Assembly: GCA_002685255.1 (NCBI GenBank)
Contig: NYWU01000010.1
Location: 62,001-126,000, forward strand
Reading direction: 5' to 3'
DNA from: Idiomarinaceae bacterium
GTDB lineage: Bacteria > Pseudomonadota > Gammaproteobacteria > Enterobacterales > Alteromonadaceae
Length of the DNA: 64,000 nucleotides
In this document: positions 52,868 through 61,358 of the stretch, in pieces
Layout: each line of letters starts with the position of its first letter
How positions within the stretch are numbered: the first letter of the stretch is position 1
Position numbers and translations under genes: made by a program
Notes under the pieces: model-generated
The model's input: only the letters and a program-made list of their open reading frames with translations
Told to the model about the DNA's origin: nothing
Database searches by the model: none

Positions 52868-53731
52868 ATGATTCAAAGTATGACCGGTTACGCTCGTTAC
52901 GAGCACAAAGCAGAATGGGGCAGCGCCGTGTGGGAAATCCGCTCGGTTAACCAACGCTATTTAGAAACCTACTTTCGACTGCCCGAGAGCGTGCGCGCCC
53001 TCGAGAGCAACCTACGAGAACTTTTGCGCAAGCAACTCCAGCGCGGCAAAGTCGAATGTCGCTTGCACCTGCACATGGATGAGAGCAAGCAAAGCGAGTT
53101 AGTGATTAACGAAGCACTCGCCGAGAGCGTGATCAACCAAGCCAAATGGGTCAACCGCCAAGTTCACAACGCACAAATTAACGCACTCGACGTGTTGAAA
53201 TGGCCTGGCGTCGTCAGCAGTGACGACCAAGATATCGACGAGCTCCAAAAAGAACTGTTCGACGCCGTAAAACCCGCGCTCAACGAATTTATCGAAAACC
53301 GAGCCAGTGAAGGCGAAGCCATTAACACCATGCTTCAGCAACGCTTAGACGGCATCATCGAACACGTCGCCTTTGTACGCGAACGCCTGCCAGAAGTCGT
53401 TAAATGGCAACGTGAGCGCTTACTAACCCGCTTTGAAGAAGCCAAAGTCGAACTCGAACCACAACGCCTCGAAGCCGAAATGGTCATGCTGGCGCAAAAA
53501 GTCGACGTCGCCGAAGAACTCGACCGCCTCGACGCCCATGTCGCCGAAGCCCGCAAGATCCTGAAAAAGGGCGGCGCCTGCGGCCGACGCCTTGACTTTA
53601 TGATGCAAGAGTTCAACCGCGAAGCGAACACCCTCGCCTCGAAATCCATCAACGCCGAAATCACCGCCGCCGCAGTCGAGCTAAAAGTGTTGATCGAGCA
53701 GATGCGTGAGCAAATTCAGAACATCGAGTAG
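52868..53731 (+). CDS. yicC: YicC-family endoribonuclease
   Basis: From the ATG at 52868 (AGGA upstream) the protein has 287 residues and begins MIQSMTGYARYE, the invariant YicC start. The C-terminal domain (DUF1732) shows RLDFMMQEFNREANTLASKS and ends VLIEQMREQIQNIE. YicC proteins have recently been described as RNases that help decay of small RNAs. Its last codons form the left copy of the direct repeat that bounds the downstream island, leaving the gene intact. Confidence 0.96.
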   Translation: MIQSMTGYARYEHKAEWGSAVWEIRSVNQRYLETYFRLPESVRALESNLRELLRKQLQRGKVECRLHLHMDESKQSELVINEALAESVINQAKWVNRQVHNAQINALDVLKWPGVVSSDDQDIDELQKELFDAVKPALNEFIENRASEGEAINTMLQQRLDGIIEHVAFVRERLPEVVKWQRERLLTRFEEAKVELEPQRLEAEMVMLAQKVDVAEELDRLDAHVAEARKILKKGGACGRRLDFMMQEFNREANTLASKSINAEITAAAVELKVLIEQMREQIQNIE

Positions 53732-53751
53732 GTCGCGCCTTTGGCGCGACT
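53717..53751. repeat. Left copy of the 35-bp island-bounding direct repeat (attL-like)
   Basis: The 35 bases cover the last yicC codons (QNIE-stop) and the hairpin GTCGCGCC-TTT-GGCGCGAC. They recur at 60722-60756 with three mismatches. A repeat made from the 3' end of a core gene is typical of site-specific island insertion. Confidence 0.75.
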
Positions 53752-54013: not shown

Positions 54014-55081
54014 ATGCCAATTTTTCGCCTCCAAAATGATCAATTAATTGCGCTAGATACAACCCGGTTTGATCAGCACGCCATATATGAGCGAAATCAT
54101 CTACAGCAAGTACTGAAAAAGCATATAGATGTGTTGCATCCCGACATCTTGATAGTTGCAGAGGAGTTTGGTGATTGGGATGAAAGCCGCCGACGCATAG
54201 ATTTATTGGCAATAGACAAAGAAGCTCGTTTAGTGGTCATTGAGTTGAAACGTACTGAAGATGGTGGGCATATGGAGCTTCAGGCGATTCGGTATGCAGC
54301 CATGGTTTCAACCCTTACGTTCGAGCGTTTGGTAGGCATATTTAGTGATTACATTGAAGCGAACGGTTTGGAGATCGAAGCGAGAGAAAAGTTGCTTGAT
54401 TTCTTGCAATGGAGTGAGCCAGACGAGGATAGTTTTGCTCAAGATGTCAGGGTCATACTCGCATCTGCTGACTTTTCAAAAGAACTCACAACATCTGTAC
54501 TGTGGCTGAATGATAATGGCTTGGATATTACCTGCATTCGCATGAAGCCTTATGTTTACGGCAATGAGCTGCTGATTGACATCCAAAGTGTTATTCCTGT
54601 GCCTGAAGCCAGTGATTATCAAATTAAAATAAAAGAGAAGCGCCAACGCGAACGAACGGCGCGCACAACCACTAATGACAGAACTCGTTTTGATTTGAGC
54701 GTTGATGGAATGGTATTTCCGGAATTGAGTAAGCGTTGGTTGGTCTATCGCGTTGTAAAGGCTTGTATCGATCAAGGTGTGAAGCCTAGCCAGATAAATG
54801 AGGTGATCAGTAATTTGCCCAATCACGCAAGGAACGCGTTCCAAGTTTTTAGTGGTGTATTGAATGACGACGACGTGAAGGCTAAGTTCAATGAATTGGA
54901 CACAGGTGGGCAAATACATCGTAGTCGTCGATTTTTCTCGCAGCCGGGTGAATTTTTTCATGAAAACGAGAAAACATATGTACTTACGAACCAATGGGGC
55001 ACAGGCGCACTCGAAACCGTTGATACGTTAATCAGTGCCTTTTGTGATGCGCGTATTAGTTACAGCAAAAGTTTGAGCTAG
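54014..55081 (+). CDS. NucS/DUF91-like PD-(D/E)XK nuclease protein
   Basis: A 355-residue soluble protein. Residues about 20-110 carry a PD-(D/E)XK nuclease core: D63 in RRRIDLL, E77 and K79 in VVIELKR, and Q90 in MELQAIRYA, the pattern of NucS/DUF91-type endonucleases (RxDLL...ElK...Q...Y). The middle (about 200-225) is basic and likely a linker; the C-terminal 130 residues, with LSKRWLVYRVVKACIDQG and FFSQPGEFFHENEKTYVLTNQWG, I do not recognise, though a DNA-binding or sensing domain is plausible. The DUF429 gene follows after 5 bases, so they are one operon. Role in defence is inferred from location. Confidence 0.7.
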   Translation: MPIFRLQNDQLIALDTTRFDQHAIYERNHLQQVLKKHIDVLHPDILIVAEEFGDWDESRRRIDLLAIDKEARLVVIELKRTEDGGHMELQAIRYAAMVSTLTFERLVGIFSDYIEANGLEIEAREKLLDFLQWSEPDEDSFAQDVRVILASADFSKELTTSVLWLNDNGLDITCIRMKPYVYGNELLIDIQSVIPVPEASDYQIKIKEKRQRERTARTTTNDRTRFDLSVDGMVFPELSKRWLVYRVVKACIDQGVKPSQINEVISNLPNHARNAFQVFSGVLNDDDVKAKFNELDTGGQIHRSRRFFSQPGEFFHENEKTYVLTNQWGTGALETVDTLISAFCDARISYSKSLS

Positions 55082-55086
55082 TAGCT

Positions 55087-56301
55087 ATGATTTTAGCTGG
55101 CATCGATCTCGCTTGGACGGCTAAGCATCCGACAGGTATCGCATACGGTGAATTGAAGGGTGACGTCTTAACGGTCACGGATATGAGTCATGGAGTACTG
55201 TTTCCTGACTCAATTTGTGAAGAAATCGAACGCAGACGTGTCGAGGGGGTGGCGATCGATGCGCCGACGATAATCAATAATCAAACAGGAATGCGAGAAT
55301 GTGAAAAAGCTATCGGTCGAGCTTTTGGTCAGAAGAAAGCATCCTGCATGCCCAGTAATCTGGAAAAGTACCCAAACCACCCTGCTGTAGAGCTCTCTCA
55401 GAAGTTAGAAACCCAAAGATTTCAGCACCTTACTACAGATAAAAAATTTCAGGTGGAATGTTATCCTCATCCGGCAATCATCAACTTGTTTGGGTTACCT
55501 GAAAGGCTGAAGTACAAGAAGAAAAAAGGGATGAAGGTTGCTGATCAAGTCCACGGGCAACGTCGACTCGGGTGGCTGCTTCGAAGTCTGGAGAACTCAC
55601 CTGTGCTCTGTTTGAAAATAGCTAATTATGTACAGGTAGAGCATTTTAAATTCGACCGGGAGCACAATCTCGTTGGCTCGGAAGTAAAGGCTCACGAAGA
55701 TAAGCTCGATGCGATTGTTTGCTTGTACGTCGCAGCGTTGCATAAGATCGGCCACACGACTACTTTCGGTTCACCAGGTGATGGTTACATTGTCGTGCCC
55801 AAGCAGCAGGAGTACATATCCACTAGAAATTTAGCAGAAAGCGATGAATGGGAAATGGCACCATGGGCGGTCGAAACGGCGCATAAATATTATTTAGCTG
55901 CGATACAAACTTATCCTATTTGCGGGAATGTGAGTATGACGAATGCAGCGTTAGCCGCCGAGATTATCCTTAAAAGCTACCTACTCAGGCCTTCAAAGAA
56001 CCTAGGCGCCCTGAATCAACGATACAGTCGACCCAAAGTGTCGGGTGATTCGCACAATCTTTCCAATCTCTTGGATATGCTACCCGCAGAAATACAAGGT
56101 AAATTGGTGTCATCTTTCGAGCGTGAAATGCTCTACAAATACCGTAATTACTTTAAAGATGGTCGATACGTTTATGAGACAAACGCACCGTCTGGTTATA
56201 GTCAGACACTTCATTTAATTGCACAGAATATGATTCGTAGAACAGTAAAAATATATCTTGAGCTCGGGAGTGAAGATCCTTGGATCGTCAATTTTAACTA
56301 G
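55087..56301 (+). CDS. DUF429 protein with HEPN-like C-terminal half
   Basis: A 404-residue soluble protein. Residues 1-220 fit DUF429, an RNase H-like fold with acidic residues at D7 (AGIDLAW), D58 (AIDAP), E124 (VECYPHPA) and D205/D208 (HEDKLDAIVCLYVA); a row of conserved acids suggests a metal-dependent nuclease. Residues about 255-395 look like a HEPN helical domain: HKYYLAAIQTYP, ALAAEIILKSYLL, HNLSNLLDMLP, then RNYFKDGRYVYE. The usual RxxxxH RNase motif of toxic HEPN domains is not evident, so it may bind rather than cut RNA. Fusion of the two is unusual to me. It shares an operon with the NucS-like gene. Confidence 0.65.
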   Translation: MILAGIDLAWTAKHPTGIAYGELKGDVLTVTDMSHGVLFPDSICEEIERRRVEGVAIDAPTIINNQTGMRECEKAIGRAFGQKKASCMPSNLEKYPNHPAVELSQKLETQRFQHLTTDKKFQVECYPHPAIINLFGLPERLKYKKKKGMKVADQVHGQRRLGWLLRSLENSPVLCLKIANYVQVEHFKFDREHNLVGSEVKAHEDKLDAIVCLYVAALHKIGHTTTFGSPGDGYIVVPKQQEYISTRNLAESDEWEMAPWAVETAHKYYLAAIQTYPICGNVSMTNAALAAEIILKSYLLRPSKNLGALNQRYSRPKVSGDSHNLSNLLDMLPAEIQGKLVSSFEREMLYKYRNYFKDGRYVYETNAPSGYSQTLHLIAQNMIRRTVKIYLELGSEDPWIVNFN

Positions 56302-56422
56302 TTCTTGCATGGATTGATGTTAGGTTGGCTCATTGTTGTCTGAGCACTCTGCACCATGCTAATTGCATTTGGAATCGTGAATTGCCCCTCATGGTGCGGC
56401 TTGCACGACCGCCTGTCTTGGA

Positions 56423-56722
56423 TTGGGAGCACAATGGAACGAGGCGCATGGAGATGAAGCCTTTCTGATTGTGGCCAACTTTATGGACTTGGTGGCTATT
56501 CTGGACGCCCAACTACACATTGACGGTAAAATTGTAGGTCTTGAGCCAGCGGACCTGCTTACTGGTCAAGAAACTAACTCAGGCGTTCGAACTTCGACAA
56601 AAGGGTTTCGTACAACACTTGAAAACATTGAAGCAATCACCAACGCCAAGCGCGTATGGTTACGCATCGAAACGCCAACAGGAACGCGAGAAGACCGCAT
56701 TATTGATGCTATCCGGCGATAG
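56423..56722 (+). CDS. Unrecognised short ORF, possibly a gene remnant
   Basis: Up to 99 residues from a TTG start; the frame is open from 56381 without ATG or GTG near its beginning, and no good ribosome-binding site is visible. The protein looks natural rather than random: FMDLVAILDAQLHIDGKIVG, then GVRTSTKGFRTTLENIEAI and WLRIETPTGTREDRIIDA. I cannot assign a family. The lack of a proper start suggests a 5'-truncated remnant of an older gene between the two modules, or a small gene starting at an internal GTG (56474) or ATG (56483). Confidence 0.35.
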   Translation: MGAQWNEAHGDEAFLIVANFMDLVAILDAQLHIDGKIVGLEPADLLTGQETNSGVRTSTKGFRTTLENIEAITNAKRVWLRIETPTGTREDRIIDAIRR

Positions 56723-56830
56723 TAAGGCCTATCATGCTATGAAGCGTTTTATAAGCGCTGTGAAAAGTGTTGATTGAGGAGCCCCACCTCTACCACAAAC
56801 ACTGGTTCTGATAAGAAAGCACTCTTCCGT

Positions 56831-56877
56831 TGGGGAGGGGGCATTTTTAGTAACTAGATACCCTCCCCATCTTTTTG
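56831..56877 (+). terminator. Terminator-like inverted repeat before the restriction-modification operon
   Basis: TGGGGAGGG and CCCTCCCCA form a perfect 9-bp inverted repeat with a 21-base loop, followed by a T run. It would insulate the methyltransferase operon from upstream transcription. Confidence 0.55.
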
Positions 56878-57081
56878 GGTAGTAAAAACTAAGGTTCGAA
56901 GAGGTTGGGTTAGGTGGGAGAGCAGTACTATCAAGCTAGTTTTCATATTTCTGTAGGATAAGCATACTCTCATTTTAGGCTAAATTGACATACATGCTTA
57001 AGCCAAACTCAAGGGAGGTACGGCTTGTAATTTAGTGTCGATACATGTATTTTTGTACAGTGCTTTTAGGGATTGAATTTA

Positions 57082-58143
57082 ATGTATAAAAAATTAAAAG
57101 TTTTAGACCTGTTTTGCGGAGCTGGCGGACTATCGCTTGGGTTTTCGATGGCTGGCTTTGATGTGGTGGCGGGAATTGATAACGATAAAGAAGCCCTTGA
57201 AACTTATGGTAAAAATTTCCCAAAAGCTAAGGCGATTTATGAAGATCTGTCTTGTTTGTCTGATTCGACGATAGCATCTATTGATAAAGTTGACGTAATG
57301 CTTGGAGGCCCGCCCTGTCAAGGTTTCTCTATTGCAGGAAAAAGGGACGAAAAGGATCCGAGGAATCAGTTAACACAGTCATATTTAAAACTGGTTGCTT
57401 TAGTTAACCCAAAAGCTGTCGTAATCGAGAACGTACCGAACATATTGAGTATGGGAAATGGCGCATTCGCGAGCAGAATTGTAGATGGGCTCTCGCGTCT
57501 AGGGTATTTAGTCTCTGTAGAAAAATTGAATGCGGCTGATTTTGGCGTGCCTCAGAATAGACGGCGAGTTTTTTTTATTGCGTTTAAAAATCATGATATT
57601 AAACTTTTGGACTTTGAGCTATCCAAAGTCAGCCGACCAGTTACGACAAAGGAAGCCATTGACGATTTACCTCTACTAGATGATGAACTGGGCTCTCCAA
57701 TTATGACTTACTCGGTAGAGGCTACATCTGAGTTTCAGAAGAAAATGAGGAGTGGTAGCCAAGTACTTACAAATCATGAAGCTGTAGCTCATAAACAGAG
57801 AACGAAAGAGATTATTGCCTTAGTTCCTGATGGAGGTAACTATAAAGACTTGCCAATTGAGTTACAGGGAACACGCAAGGTAAATATTGCTTGGACAAGA
57901 ATGAATAGCGAAAGGCCATGTTTTACAATTGATGCAGGACACAATCATCATTTCCATTATAAAGCCAACAGAGTGCCTACAGTTCGAGAATGCGCAAGAA
58001 TTCAAAGTTTTCCTGATACGTTTAGTTTTGAAGGAAAAAGAACTAGCCAATATCGCCAGGTGGGAAATGCGGTTCCTCCTATGCTAGCAAAAGTAATTGC
58101 ATGTAAAATTAAGGGAATTATAGAGGTTAAAAATGGCGTATGA
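57082..58143 (+). CDS. DNA (cytosine-5) methyltransferase, first of the M-R-M operon
   Basis: A 353-residue m5C methyltransferase. In order: motif I LDLFCGAGGLSLGF (8-21), motif IV GGPPCQGFS with catalytic C79, motif VI ENVPN (116-120), motif VIII QNRRRVFFIA, a target-recognition region (about 210-290) and motif X RQVGNAVPP. The ATG at 57082 has an AGGG site about ten bases before it; the in-frame TTG at 57073 is too close to that site. Length is typical of type II modification enzymes. Its end overlaps the next gene by 11 bases. Low G+C compared with core genes suggests transfer. Confidence 0.95.
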   Translation: MYKKLKVLDLFCGAGGLSLGFSMAGFDVVAGIDNDKEALETYGKNFPKAKAIYEDLSCLSDSTIASIDKVDVMLGGPPCQGFSIAGKRDEKDPRNQLTQSYLKLVALVNPKAVVIENVPNILSMGNGAFASRIVDGLSRLGYLVSVEKLNAADFGVPQNRRRVFFIAFKNHDIKLLDFELSKVSRPVTTKEAIDDLPLLDDELGSPIMTYSVEATSEFQKKMRSGSQVLTNHEAVAHKQRTKEIIALVPDGGNYKDLPIELQGTRKVNIAWTRMNSERPCFTIDAGHNHHFHYKANRVPTVRECARIQSFPDTFSFEGKRTSQYRQVGNAVPPMLAKVIACKIKGIIEVKNGV

Positions 58144-59521
58144 TCATACTAAACAATATCGTGCCGTTATTGTAAGGGGTAAGGGAATATCTGATTTAGA
58201 TAATTTTTTACCTACTTACGCAAATATACTTAACGAAATTTGCCCTATACCTCAGGCTGAATTTAAAGAAGCTTTCAACGAGAGAATTTTTAGACTGTTA
58301 GATACCGGTGTTGAAAAAACATTAGATAACCACCGTACAGAGATAGCAGGAAAGCTTTTTGGAATGTATTACACGGATGAAAGCGATAATGTTTGTATAT
58401 CTCATAGAGCTTCTAAGTTACTTGAAGATTCGGATCAGCCCGCATTTTTCAAGGATTTATGTGCAAAATATCAATTCCCAAGTGGAATGAATAAAATCGA
58501 ACAGACAGTAAAGCCTCAACTTGCTCTAGGAGTCTCATGCAGGCAATTTGCATATGTCATTGCTGTGCTGCAGTGCCTTGAAGAAAAAGATATTTTTATC
58601 ACGAAAAAGCAAGTTGGCTACTACATATTGAACTCACTTGATGTTTTTACCAGAACAGCATCCCCCAGAGAAGTTTCTGAACAGATTATTGACGATATTA
58701 ATCAAAGCATTGAGAGAGAAATTTACGTGCCTGATAAAGCAACTTCTTATACTTATCAGCATGTTAACGAGCAGCTAAATCTACTCGTTTTGGCAAATGC
58801 TATCCGATTCGTCGGTAATTCGGTACGCTTAAACAAGCGAGAGAAGCCTTATCTAGATGCTCTGGCGGCGGCCTGGAGTAAAGAGCCTTTGTTTGACTTT
58901 AAGCAGTACGATCTCGATTCGATTGAAGGACGAAAAGCCGCCGAATTCGCGTGGAATAAATATTTTTCCTCGATGTCAGATATCGATGACTCATTACTCT
59001 TCACCGATGTTCAAGCCTTAGAGGACGATGAGCATGAACAGGGCGTTTTTTATGCTAAGTTTACTAAGGGGCGGCAGGGTGAGAATATGGTTGCCTTAGG
59101 TGATGAAGGAGAACACTATGTTTACGAATATGAAAGAAGTAAGGTAAACGACATCAACCCTAGGCTGGCTAATCGAGTAAAAAAACTTGGCCGAATAAAA
59201 GGAATAGGATACGACATTCAGTCAGTTTTAGGCGAGCGAGAGCGTCAAGACTGGGCAAAATATATCGAGGTAAAGGCTACTAAAAGAGTTACGGCACCTG
59301 CCGGAAATTTCAATGACTCAATAAACCTCACGAGAAATGAGTGGATAGCGGCACAGCAATTTTCAGATTGTTATTTTATTTATCGTGTTTATTTCACCGA
59401 GCATGGAGTGAAGTTATTCATAATCCCAAACCCTTACCAGCAAAATGAGAACGACACCTTAACTTGTATCGCGACAAATTACAGACTGGATTTTACCGAA
59501 AATAGTGGGAGCTTTATATGA
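58133..59521 (+). CDS. Putative restriction endonuclease with DUF3883-like nuclease domain
   Basis: A 462-residue protein lying between two cytosine methyltransferases, overlapping both (11 and 4 bases), so it is very probably the restriction enzyme. Residues about 320-435 match the DUF3883 (NO VEIN C-terminal) pattern: GEHYVYEYE (E327), GIGYDIQSV (D361), YIEVKAT (E379, K381) and LTRNEWIAA (E403), a PD-(D/E)XK nuclease core. The N-terminal 300 residues are helical with winged-helix-like parts (KKQVGYYILNSLDVFTR) and could recognise DNA. I do not recognise a named enzyme. An alternative is a modification-dependent nuclease, but protective methylases on both sides argue for classical restriction. 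Confidence 0.7.
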   Translation: MAYDHTKQYRAVIVRGKGISDLDNFLPTYANILNEICPIPQAEFKEAFNERIFRLLDTGVEKTLDNHRTEIAGKLFGMYYTDESDNVCISHRASKLLEDSDQPAFFKDLCAKYQFPSGMNKIEQTVKPQLALGVSCRQFAYVIAVLQCLEEKDIFITKKQVGYYILNSLDVFTRTASPREVSEQIIDDINQSIEREIYVPDKATSYTYQHVNEQLNLLVLANAIRFVGNSVRLNKREKPYLDALAAAWSKEPLFDFKQYDLDSIEGRKAAEFAWNKYFSSMSDIDDSLLFTDVQALEDDEHEQGVFYAKFTKGRQGENMVALGDEGEHYVYEYERSKVNDINPRLANRVKKLGRIKGIGYDIQSVLGERERQDWAKYIEVKATKRVTAPAGNFNDSINLTRNEWIAAQQFSDCYFIYRVYFTEHGVKLFIIPNPYQQNENDTLTCIATNYRLDFTENSGSFI

Positions 59522-60600
59522 CCATGAATTATAGTCCAACCATAGTTTCATTATTTTGCGGATGTGGTGGTGCTGACTTAGGGGCGCTGGGGGGATTTGA
59601 ATATCTTGGAAGTGCATACCCAGCAACCGGTGCAAAGGTAATTCATGCGTCAGATATAGATGCTAAAGCAATTCATACATATAACAAAAATTTTGAACAT
59701 AAAGCTATTGTCGAGGATGTCCGCAATTTGTCATTAAGAGGACTATCTGCGGATGTTGTTATTGGCGGATTTCCTTGTCAGCCATTCTCTACGGTTAATC
59801 CTACTAAGCAGCCAGAAAAGAAAGAGTCGCAGTTATTTTGGGAGATGGCGCGAATAATCGATGAGGTTAAACCAAAGGCGTTTATAGCCGAAAATGTCAA
59901 AGGGTTTTATCGGCTAAGGCAAGGGTATTACTTTAACTTAGCCTGCGAAAAGTTTCGGTCGCAAGGATACAAGATTTCGCACAAATTAATTAATTCCTCA
60001 GATTTTGGAGTTCCACAGAAGCGCGAACGAATATTCATAATAGGTGTAAGAGAAGACTTAAATCATACATTTGAATTTCCTGATGAAACTCATGGGTCAG
60101 GAGATGGACTCATACCAAAGTCAATTCTGAGCGATGTAATTGATTCGTTATGGCCACAGGATCCGAAGTATTTTTTTTCGAAACGAGCTGTCGATGGTGT
60201 AAAGCGAGCCAAGCCGAATATGAAAAGGGCTCTAGCACAGGACTTGAATTCTCAATGCTTAACGATAACAAGTCATTTAGCTAAAGTTAGCCTCAACTCA
60301 CGAGATCCCGTTCTTCTAGTTGACCAAGAGAAGGAATTGTATCGACGTTTTTCTCCAAGAGAAGCGGCAAGAATTCAGTCTTTCCCAGATGAGTTTCAGC
60401 TCACAGGAAGTCAGGGTGACGCATACAGACAAATTGGAAATGCTATACCGCCCATAGTTATGTGGCATTTGGCCACGGCGTTATTTAACCAGCTTAACAA
60501 TCCTAGCGATAGGACCTTAAATTACCCCAAAGAGTTTCAGTTTGAACAACAAACGTTATTCGAAAAGTCAGTTAAAGACGATAGATTGGTTAGTCTTTAG
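59518..60600 (+). CDS. DNA (cytosine-5) methyltransferase, second of the M-R-M operon
   Basis: A 360-residue m5C methyltransferase distinct from the first. Motif I IVSLFCGCGGADLG (9-22), motif IV GGFPCQPFS with catalytic C87, motif VI ENVKG (125-129), motif VIII QKRERIFIIG, recognition region about 190-285, motif X RQIGNAIPP. Two different m5C enzymes flanking one nuclease are the usual arrangement when the recognition site is asymmetric and each strand needs its own methylase. A second in-frame ATG lies two codons on. A long hairpin follows the stop. Confidence 0.95.
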   Translation: MTMNYSPTIVSLFCGCGGADLGALGGFEYLGSAYPATGAKVIHASDIDAKAIHTYNKNFEHKAIVEDVRNLSLRGLSADVVIGGFPCQPFSTVNPTKQPEKKESQLFWEMARIIDEVKPKAFIAENVKGFYRLRQGYYFNLACEKFRSQGYKISHKLINSSDFGVPQKRERIFIIGVREDLNHTFEFPDETHGSGDGLIPKSILSDVIDSLWPQDPKYFFSKRAVDGVKRAKPNMKRALAQDLNSQCLTITSHLAKVSLNSRDPVLLVDQEKELYRRFSPREAARIQSFPDEFQLTGSQGDAYRQIGNAIPPIVMWHLATALFNQLNNPSDRTLNYPKEFQFEQQTLFEKSVKDDRLVSL

Positions 60601-60615
60601 AATATAGAGTTTGTA

Positions 60616-60649
60616 TGCATTAAGGATCCAAAAATGGATCCTTAATGCA
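60616..60649. terminator. Long perfect hairpin after the restriction-modification operon
   Basis: TGCATTAAGGATCC-AAAAAT-GGATCCTTAATGCA is a perfect 14-bp stem with a 6-base loop, 16 bases past the methyltransferase stop. No T run follows. It may stop transcription, stabilise the mRNA end or be a protein-binding dyad. Confidence 0.5.
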
Positions 60650-60721
60650 AAGAACGCCATCCGTAAAATCAGCAAACATTTGTTTTATAAGTAAATAATA
60701 TCTACATCATCCATTCAGATC

Positions 60722-60756
60722 CAAAACATCGGGTAGGTAGCGCCTTTGGCGCGACT
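60722..60756. repeat. Right copy of the 35-bp island-bounding direct repeat (attR-like)
   Basis: Identical to 53717-53751 at 32 of 35 positions, including the CGCC-TTT-GGCG hairpin core. With the bases just before it, the frame reads IQIQNIG-stop, resembling the yicC tail QIQNIE-stop, so it looks like a remnant of another yicC 3' end. Confidence 0.75.
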
Positions 60757-61061
60757 TAGCTACTTCCAACCACGACAAACCAGTCGACGCCGGCGATACG
60801 GCTGGATTGTAGGCAAGGCTCTCCTTTCATCCAATAGTGTCCGATGAATAATGGTTTTTGGTTGTCGTAACCAGACATTGATGAATCCAACTAAGTCCGT
60901 ATAGTTAAACGTAACTCAAATGTGCTTATCGATCAGCAACTCATGACTAACTACAACAAAAAAATCATTATCACGGCCGCGAAATCTTCTTTTAGCAAAC
61001 TATGTGAGTTGAACGACATTGCGGCACGCTTTTTCATAAACCATCTCAAGGCCTTTAAACC

Positions 61062-61358
61062 ATGCCCCCAAAACACAAACAAACCGAACGTGACATTATT
61101 CGTGCGCTGACCGAGGTCTGCGAGGATGCCAAAGTTGAGCATGAGGGTTTCGTATGGCTCACACACGAGGTGAACTATCAGCGCTTTCCACAGAGCTTAG
61201 TGGTGACCTTGGTGTTTGATGAGTATGTCAGTGAGCCGGCGATGTTGTCGGCTTTGGCCGCGTTAGTGCCCGAGGTGCAGCGTGCGTTGAAGCCGATCGT
61301 GGGTGGTGAGTTGCCTGCACGTCAGATAGAGGCGCGCTACGAACACACAATGCATTAA
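61062..61358 (+). CDS. Small conserved hypothetical protein
   Basis: A 98-residue soluble protein beginning MPPKHKQTERDIIRALTEVCEDAK, with the block EGFVWLTHEVNYQRFPQSLVV and a following FDEYV strand. I recall similar small proteins as conserved hypotheticals in Alteromonadales but cannot name a function. Codon choice resembles the neighbouring core genes, unlike the island. It is followed after about 100 bases by the DUF885 gene, which has its own promoter. Confidence 0.6.
   Translation: MPPKHKQTERDIIRALTEVCEDAKVEHEGFVWLTHEVNYQRFPQSLVVTLVFDEYVSEPAMLSALAALVPEVQRALKPIVGGELPARQIEARYEHTMH

Follow-up and report, generated by a model that had tools for sequence, protein, structure and literature searches.

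A PDC-S11 nuclease candidate beside a DUF429-HEPN-like fusion gene in a yicC genomic island: a pair without a second case in the genomes searched

Introduction

SduA, the nuclease of the Shedu system, is a PD-(D/E)XK enzyme of bacterial defence, and it is against this and a handful of other described nucleases that we set two neighbouring genes, hereafter P1 and P2, from a 64,000-nucleotide stretch of Idiomarinaceae bacterium contig NYWU01000010.1 (the whole of this stretch is referred to as the window). The two genes lie on the same strand, 5 bases apart (55082-55086), in a genomic island that also carries a Type II restriction-modification (R-M) operon. A first-pass annotation, made from the letters alone, had read them as a possible undescribed defence module in which a NucS-like nuclease is coupled to a DUF429-HEPN-like partner. 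Its gene layout was accurate in coordinates, strand, lengths and spacing, and the neighbouring R-M operon is likewise where it was placed. We argue here that P1 and P2 are probably two stand-alone candidate defence genes, acquired independently of each other and stacked in one island.

Several of the parts of which these genes are made have been encountered before. In one survey, 90% of 10 Pseudomonas aeruginosa strains with PDC-S11, the candidate to which P1 corresponds, were phage-resistant, which is a correlation only (PMC10855318), and the literature found naming PDC-S11, this survey included, calls PDC systems unvalidated. DUF429, the N-terminal domain of P2, was placed by a 2014 survey in the RNase H-like superfamily together with RuvC and YqgF, its members being likely active nucleases (PMC3985635). 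For the HEPN superfamily, the characteristic motif is Ex3[KR], and Anantharaman et al. describe how HEPNs of the AbiV and AF0298 types have lost the histidine of the Rx4-6H motif and retain its arginine along with a conserved upstream histidine, possibly as an alternative site (PMC3710099).

No second adjacent pair in the genomes searched

Co-occurrence of P1 and P2 elsewhere, whose lack the first-pass annotation had named as grounds for refuting its proposal, was not seen in adjacent form in any of the genomes searched; within these, the pair is without a second case. Besides the window's own locus, we fetched 58 loci of P1 relatives, 23 of DUF429 and 48 of the HEPN-like domain, and P1 is co-located with neither of the P2 domains. 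Put another way, the 58 P1 loci and 67 P2-domain loci have no locus in common, within flanks mostly of 1.5-6 kb and with some loci being the same place counted again. Among 42 genomes or records with relatives of the P2 domains (38 genome loci, three plasmids and the genome G295), four have a P1 relative, three of these being weak (22-28% identity) and all four on other contigs. Both genes are represented in only 2 of 274 genomes sampled from the class, namely the window's genome and G119, where they are on different contigs. A sample of 246 genomes from the family gave P1 in 19, P2-type sequences in 13 and both in two, the window's genome and G448, here too on different contigs; for the 245 other genomes, 18 carriers of the one and 12 of the other would be expected to coincide 0.9 times by chance, and one coincidence is seen.

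It is by these counts that a true two-gene defence module, formed not long ago from a DNA nuclease and an RNA/DNA nuclease partner and confined to this lineage, has to be judged. The common strand, the narrow spacing and the shared island speak for it, as do G119 and G448 in holding relatives of both genes, though on different contigs. On the other hand, no other fetched locus has both, no P1 is present anywhere in the genomes that hold the other three P2 fusions (L028, L029 and G295), and neither gene was found in 18 other same-genus genomes searched. With no second adjacent pair among the loci fetched and no clear excess of co-occurrence within genomes, we rejected the coupled module as our principal explanation and consider it very unlikely.

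That P1 and P2 are separately acquired single genes is favoured because they match two different single-gene PADLOC candidates, PDC-S11 and PDC-S44, and because P1 and the domains of P2 each occur without the other. It is favoured further because relatives of P1 neighbour genes for BrxL, Type I methyltransferases, specificity subunits and Argonaute, because the fused P2 gene keeps other company at the Pseudidiomarina loci L028 and L029, where a WYL gene is near it, and because GC content differs between the two genes (43.6% for P1, 44.9% for P2), the R-M operon (40.1%) and the first 53 kb of the window (48.3%).

Several observations weigh against this account. Genes spaced by 5 bp are suggestive of co-expression, and a functional pairing of recent date could lie behind this; in addition, the structure model of P1 is weak (pLDDT 70.9, pTM 0.51). 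The parts of P2, moreover, are not clearly defence genes elsewhere. Six stand-alone DUF429 loci were read by eye, and most are amid apparent housekeeping genes, with one lying by a HigBA-like pair and one by an SNF2-type helicase. The neighbours of 31 stand-alone HEPN-like genes (61 proteins) hit 16 PADLOC models with one member each, in a count that took one gene per side, as opposed to up to three for P1, and so is not strictly comparable with the P1 count, and that has no random-gene baseline.

The same observations bear on an explanation that overlaps with ours, namely that P2 is not a defence protein and that the DUF429-HEPN protein is an accessory of nucleic-acid metabolism, carried in the island by chance. 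The scarcity of defence neighbours around stand-alone HEPN-like relatives and the ordinary surroundings of many stand-alone DUF429 genes point in this direction, as do the conserved context and low mobility noted for DUF429 in the 2014 survey (PMC3985635) and the setting of the fused gene in G295, amid what by eye are apparently housekeeping genes. The fused form is sporadic, however, having been found in four genomes in all, and here it is in an island; WYL regulators are nearby in two Pseudidiomarina, and the N-terminal domain is that of PDC-S44. Weighing the two sides, we regard a role outside defence as a real possibility for P2, if on balance an unlikely one.

P1 and the PDC-S11 family

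P1 corresponds to PDC-S11 over practically its whole length. Residues 1-351 of 355 align with positions 1-343 of 347 in the PADLOC model PDLC04909 (E 4.3e-132), and full-length matches to two PDC-S11 models (E 4e-132 and 5e-113) are its strongest to any family. The PD-(D/E)XK core that the first-pass annotation had read by eye withstood alignment, with D63, E77, K79 and Q90 unchanged in 13 of 13 sequences; the alignment drew on 12 viral-contig P1 loci, four of which enter the neighbour count below as well. The part common to distant relatives is approximately residues 1-220, and residues 207-355 taken alone have no Pfam match. A Foldseek search with the P1 model ranks AdnAB first and returns Exo5, SduA and NucS/EndoMS among many unrelated structures, none with E <= 0.001.

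Relatives of P1 are present in 16 of the 274 class genomes and 19 of the 246 family genomes, the window's own genome and weak matches counted, as well as on 353 plasmid records; many of these relatives align over the first ~220 residues only. Among the 30 plasmid matches listed, many cover ~1-211 only, and four are annotated DUF4268. When 89 neighbours of P1 relatives were compared with PADLOC, models for Type I methyltransferases (MTase_I) were found four times, and BrxL, Class I pAgo and specificity subunits twice each, among the best 25 of 274 models. This count covers 17 of the 58 P1 loci (nine from genomes, four from plasmids, four from viral contigs) with up to three genes per side; its totals are not per locus and come without a random-gene baseline. 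In addition, annotated BREX genes adjoin P1 relatives on a Vibrio tubiashii plasmid and on a Klebsiella plasmid, and P1 itself lies beside the R-M operon of the window, so that a location among defence genes is seen for P1 as for some of its relatives. A separate observation concerns locus L116 (5620-11934, genome G036), in which a P1 relative lies downstream of proteins that look by eye like TIR/SEFIR and BrxL proteins, in what resembles a BREX island. To judge by its sequence, P1 looks like an ordinary member of the catalogued PDC-S11 candidate family.

P2: a DUF429 domain fused to a HEPN-like domain

P2 scores 63.3 bits against PF04250 (DUF429), for which the cut-off is 23, and its residues 1-242 align with positions 7-252 of the 259 in the PDC-S44 model (E 3.5e-67), residues 243-404 lying outside it. 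The first-pass claim of a DUF429 domain with intact acidic residues is thereby confirmed, D7, D58, E73, E124, D205 and D208 being the same in all 13 sequences aligned; near the end of the domain is a DxxDA helix that we take to recall RuvC. With the P2 structure model (pLDDT 80), Foldseek retrieves terminase nuclease domains, RuvC and RuvX (best E 0.005), and a search of the viral structure library BFVD again gives terminases. A phage origin of the genes was considered and rejected, P2 being unmatched in 50,697 phage records and P1 having one match there; no P2 in viral contigs was confirmed.

The fusion of DUF429 with the HEPN-like domain recurs in L028, L029 and G295 (61% identical). Only 3 bases separate the fused P2 orthologue of L029 from the end of a WYL-domain gene that precedes it, and two open reading frames (ORFs) separate the fused gene of L028 from a WYL gene further upstream. 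Among BrxR-type WYL regulators, 48% co-localise with known defence systems (PMC9122601), a figure that applies to that type only, the proteins of L028 and L029 being known here as WYL-domain genes. The two intervening ORFs in L028 (2625-5062) encode a weakly GIY-YIG-like protein of 184 aa and a 149-aa product without a Pfam match. As a further side observation, the DUF429 match and the HEPN-like match of G354, and likewise those of G436, are on separate contigs, and the DUF429 part is interrupted by an in-frame stop.

As for earlier descriptions, the RNase H survey, in the excerpts consulted, names only NUDIX and RelA/SpoT partners and does not describe the fusion (PMC3985635), the main text of the HEPN survey nowhere contains the term DUF429 (PMC3710099), and in the literature naming DUF429 or PDC-S44, judged mostly at the level of title and abstract, no title or abstract deals with it. 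The fusion looks like an undescribed domain combination, a variant of known parts. The word "undescribed" in the first-pass annotation does not hold for P1 or the N-terminal domain of P2, both of which PADLOC already catalogues.

How HEPN-like is the C-terminal domain?

Relatives of the C-terminal domain were found at 38 genome loci, at 36 of which the gene has no DUF429 match (five of these 36 genes being short, broken or partial). The five short, broken or partial loci among the 38 (L048, L056 and L062-L064) were left out of the alignment and of the neighbour count. L056 (5980-6482), from Aliidiomarina shirensis, is a HEPN-like gene without DUF429 that is split in two ORFs and apparently broken. 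In the alignment, all 34 sequences agree at 11 columns: A265, A288, E292, I293, L295, K296, S297, G307, H323, F356 and R360. The Ex3[KR] motif is thus present, as E292 and K296, and R360 with the upstream H323 gives the pattern of AbiV and AF0298. The Rx4-6H motif is missing from the window copy; it occurs somewhere in 18 of the 34 sequences but never as a conserved column.

The profile evidence is divided. A hidden Markov model (HMM) of PF05168 ranks the family over decoys, with an area under the curve of 0.90 when the decoys are other ORFs and 0.93 when they are shuffled copies, and its top 25 holds 17 family members, the family making up 45 of the 796 proteins ranked. Because its members are related and in some cases counted twice, p-values exaggerate this result. 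This HMM used 11 of 20 loci, one of the 11 having a long, probably spurious N-terminal extension. In the reverse direction, the family's own HMM ranks a single one of the 11 PF05168 members (E 0.84) ahead of every decoy; between 7 and 340 of the 707 decoys outrank the others, and 75 outrank AbiV. Also against HEPN, four members of the family are without a Pfam HEPN match at E <= 5, a PDB profile search with the C-terminal domain returns designed helical proteins and an ATP synthase chain, and HEPN is not named among the 50 BFVD matches listed. Scores from hhalign are low for all cross-family pairs, but so is that of the positive control, HEPN against AbiV. In favour of HEPN, the Foldseek top 50 for P2 includes the archaeal HEPN homologue 1wol (E 0.24), YutE 1ylm (E 0.22) and Csm6 (E 0.09-0.28), none of them significant and the part of the model aligned being unstated.

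We have weighed the alternative that the C-terminal half is not HEPN, setting the PDB profile, Pfam and reverse-HMM results against the PF05168-HMM ranking, and have kept a moderate assignment to HEPN at the superfamily level, moderate rather than proven because only the PF05168-HMM direction favoured it. The HEPN call made by eye in the first-pass annotation stands to that extent, and without the Rx4-6H motif.

A more pointed proposal is that this domain is catalytically active as an RNase through an alternative site like that of AbiV, which would make P2 a dual RuvC and HEPN effector that halts infected cells. The invariance of R360, H323, E292 and K296 across the alignment is in its favour, as are the same replacement in AbiV and AF0298 and the pairing of HEPN with RNase H folds in RNase LS and NamA (PMC3710099). 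The lack of Rx4-6H in the window copy, or as a conserved column elsewhere, counts the other way, as does the moderate standing of the HEPN homology itself, and a common site for H323 and R360 is putative; we find the proposal doubtful. Bolder still, P2 might found a small, horizontally spread one-protein family that combines a RuvC-like DNase with an AbiV-like HEPN RNase (R/H/Ex3K), is WYL-controlled in some hosts, hits phage DNA and RNA, and is newly coupled here to a PDC-S11 nuclease. This we offer as a rather improbable speculation.

Island setting

The island, which borders on the 3' end of yicC and varies in content between strains, is real, because the site has an att-like direct repeat and holds different DNA in three near relatives. 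The yicC protein is 98-99% identical in the same-genus genomes G282, G283 and G291, and the DNA 3' of yicC differs in all three; the alignment with these relatives stops at 53732-53751, and the two copies of the 41-nt repeat (Table 1) are 88% identical. yicC is a published target of islands, since those of the Shewanella GI21 type insert there (PMC8978831). The variable location proposed by the first-pass annotation is thus upheld, and neither a non-HEPN fold nor a position outside a variable region was found for the window.

Table 1. Features of the island and its borders in the window
Feature	Positions	Strand	Assignment
attL-like copy	53711-53751	+	yicC last codons and GC-rich stem; 41-nt direct repeat
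P1 (355 aa)	54014-55081	+	PDC-S11 family PD-(D/E)XK nuclease candidate; core ~28-136 and unassigned C-terminal domain
P2 (404 aa)	55087-56301	+	
P2 N-terminal domain, aa 1-242	55087-55812	+	DUF429, RuvC/RNase H-like, PDC-S44
P2 C-terminal domain, ~aa 255-404	55849-56301	+	HEPN-like (moderate support) helical domain without Rx4-6H
C5 cytosine methyltransferase, R-M operon	57073-58143	+	PF00145, E 1.5e-75
BpuJI-type restriction endonuclease with NOV_C domain	58133-59521	+	PF11564, E 2.3e-54; PF13020, E 2.9e-14
Second C5 cytosine methyltransferase, R-M operon	59518-60600	+	PF00145, E 8.3e-71
attR-like copy of yicC 3' end	60716-60756	+	repeat match; also seen by blastn

Downstream of P2, the R-M operon (57073-60600) places a BpuJI-like endonuclease between two C5 methyltransferases. 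The 99-aa ORF that precedes it (56423-56722) matches positions 57-153 of the 174 in phrog_7678, a profile of unknown function (E 2.3e-19), and looks like an N-terminally truncated remnant of a phage gene. No integrase was matched among the eight ORFs scanned in 54014-61355, seven of which are inside the repeats, and for this reason the island may have lost its own mobility. A promoter scan gave 8 sites compared with 15.6 in shuffled sequence and is uninformative.

What occupies the same site differs from relative to relative. In G282 the alignment runs to 53751 and resumes from 61058, and a single large PLD/helicase/DUF3427 gene fills the gap; its 1058-aa product (L130 6339-9515), which joins PLD, a DEAD/ResIII helicase and DUF3427, is possibly another defence cargo. 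As read by eye, G283 has small ORFs there that resemble a toxin-antitoxin pair, and G291 has a 415-aa integrase-like ORF beside yicC.

Proposed roles and significance

In the account that we prefer, the island would carry three separate cargoes, P1, P2 and the Type II R-M operon. P1 most likely would act as a restriction-type effector, with its N-terminal module cutting DNA by means of a bound metal and its variable C-terminal domain selecting or sensing the target. For P2, catalysis would most likely reside in the RuvC-like DUF429 domain, the HEPN-like part serving to bind a partner or nucleic acid, if it does not itself cleave RNA, as is possible, at a non-classical site (R360/H323/E292). 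The two genes, being co-oriented, are probably co-transcribed, yet would function independently, and phages are the presumed targets of any anti-phage activity that either possesses.

P1 adds an island-borne example to PDC-S11, an unvalidated candidate. The DUF429-HEPN fusion is a concrete construct with which to ask what role the DUF429 nuclease plays, and whether HEPNs that lack Rx4-6H but have the arginine and upstream histidine still cut RNA. More generally, adjacency within a defence island is no evidence of a module, and the natural over-reading of such adjacency is corrected here.

Comparison with known systems

Between P1 and PDC-S11, itself a single-gene candidate, the match runs the whole length and we found no difference. 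The likeness of P1 to NucS/EndoMS is confined to the PD-(D/E)XK core, which aligns with NucS_C (20.7 bits) and, by profile, with the structure 2vld (E 0.011), and to the catalytic residues D63, E77, K79 and Q90. P1 nevertheless falls short of every NucS cut-off, with 20.7 against 24 in Pfam and with 21 against 216 and 19.4 against 252 in NCBIfam, and on these grounds we discard the identification of P1 as NucS; as a label of membership, the "NucS-like" of the first-pass annotation does not apply. P1 moreover lacks the N-terminal part of NucS, because its matches to the NCBIfam NucS models do not begin until profile position 106 or 132, and it has a C-terminal domain of its own. With Shedu, P1 shares the PD-(D/E)XK nuclease type, and an SduA-DNA complex is match 6 (probability 0.80, E 0.048) when its model is searched with Foldseek, whereas the Pfam SduA_C score is 13.1 against a cut-off of 27.

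P2 spans nearly the whole PDC-S44 model with its residues 1-242, but the DUF429 and PDC-S44 models both stop before its C-terminal domain. That domain shares with the AbiV- and AF0298-like HEPNs a helical make-up, Ex3K, and a conserved arginine with an upstream histidine instead of Rx4-6H; it differs in that four members of its family lack a Pfam HEPN match and in that profile comparison with one AbiV sequence gave no significant match, the positive control having failed as well. Finally, RNase LS and NamA-HEPN, as presented in the excerpts of PMC3710099, offer the precedent of an RNase H-fold nuclease paired with a HEPN, an architecture that P2 resembles, though its own nuclease is of the RuvC-like DUF429 type.

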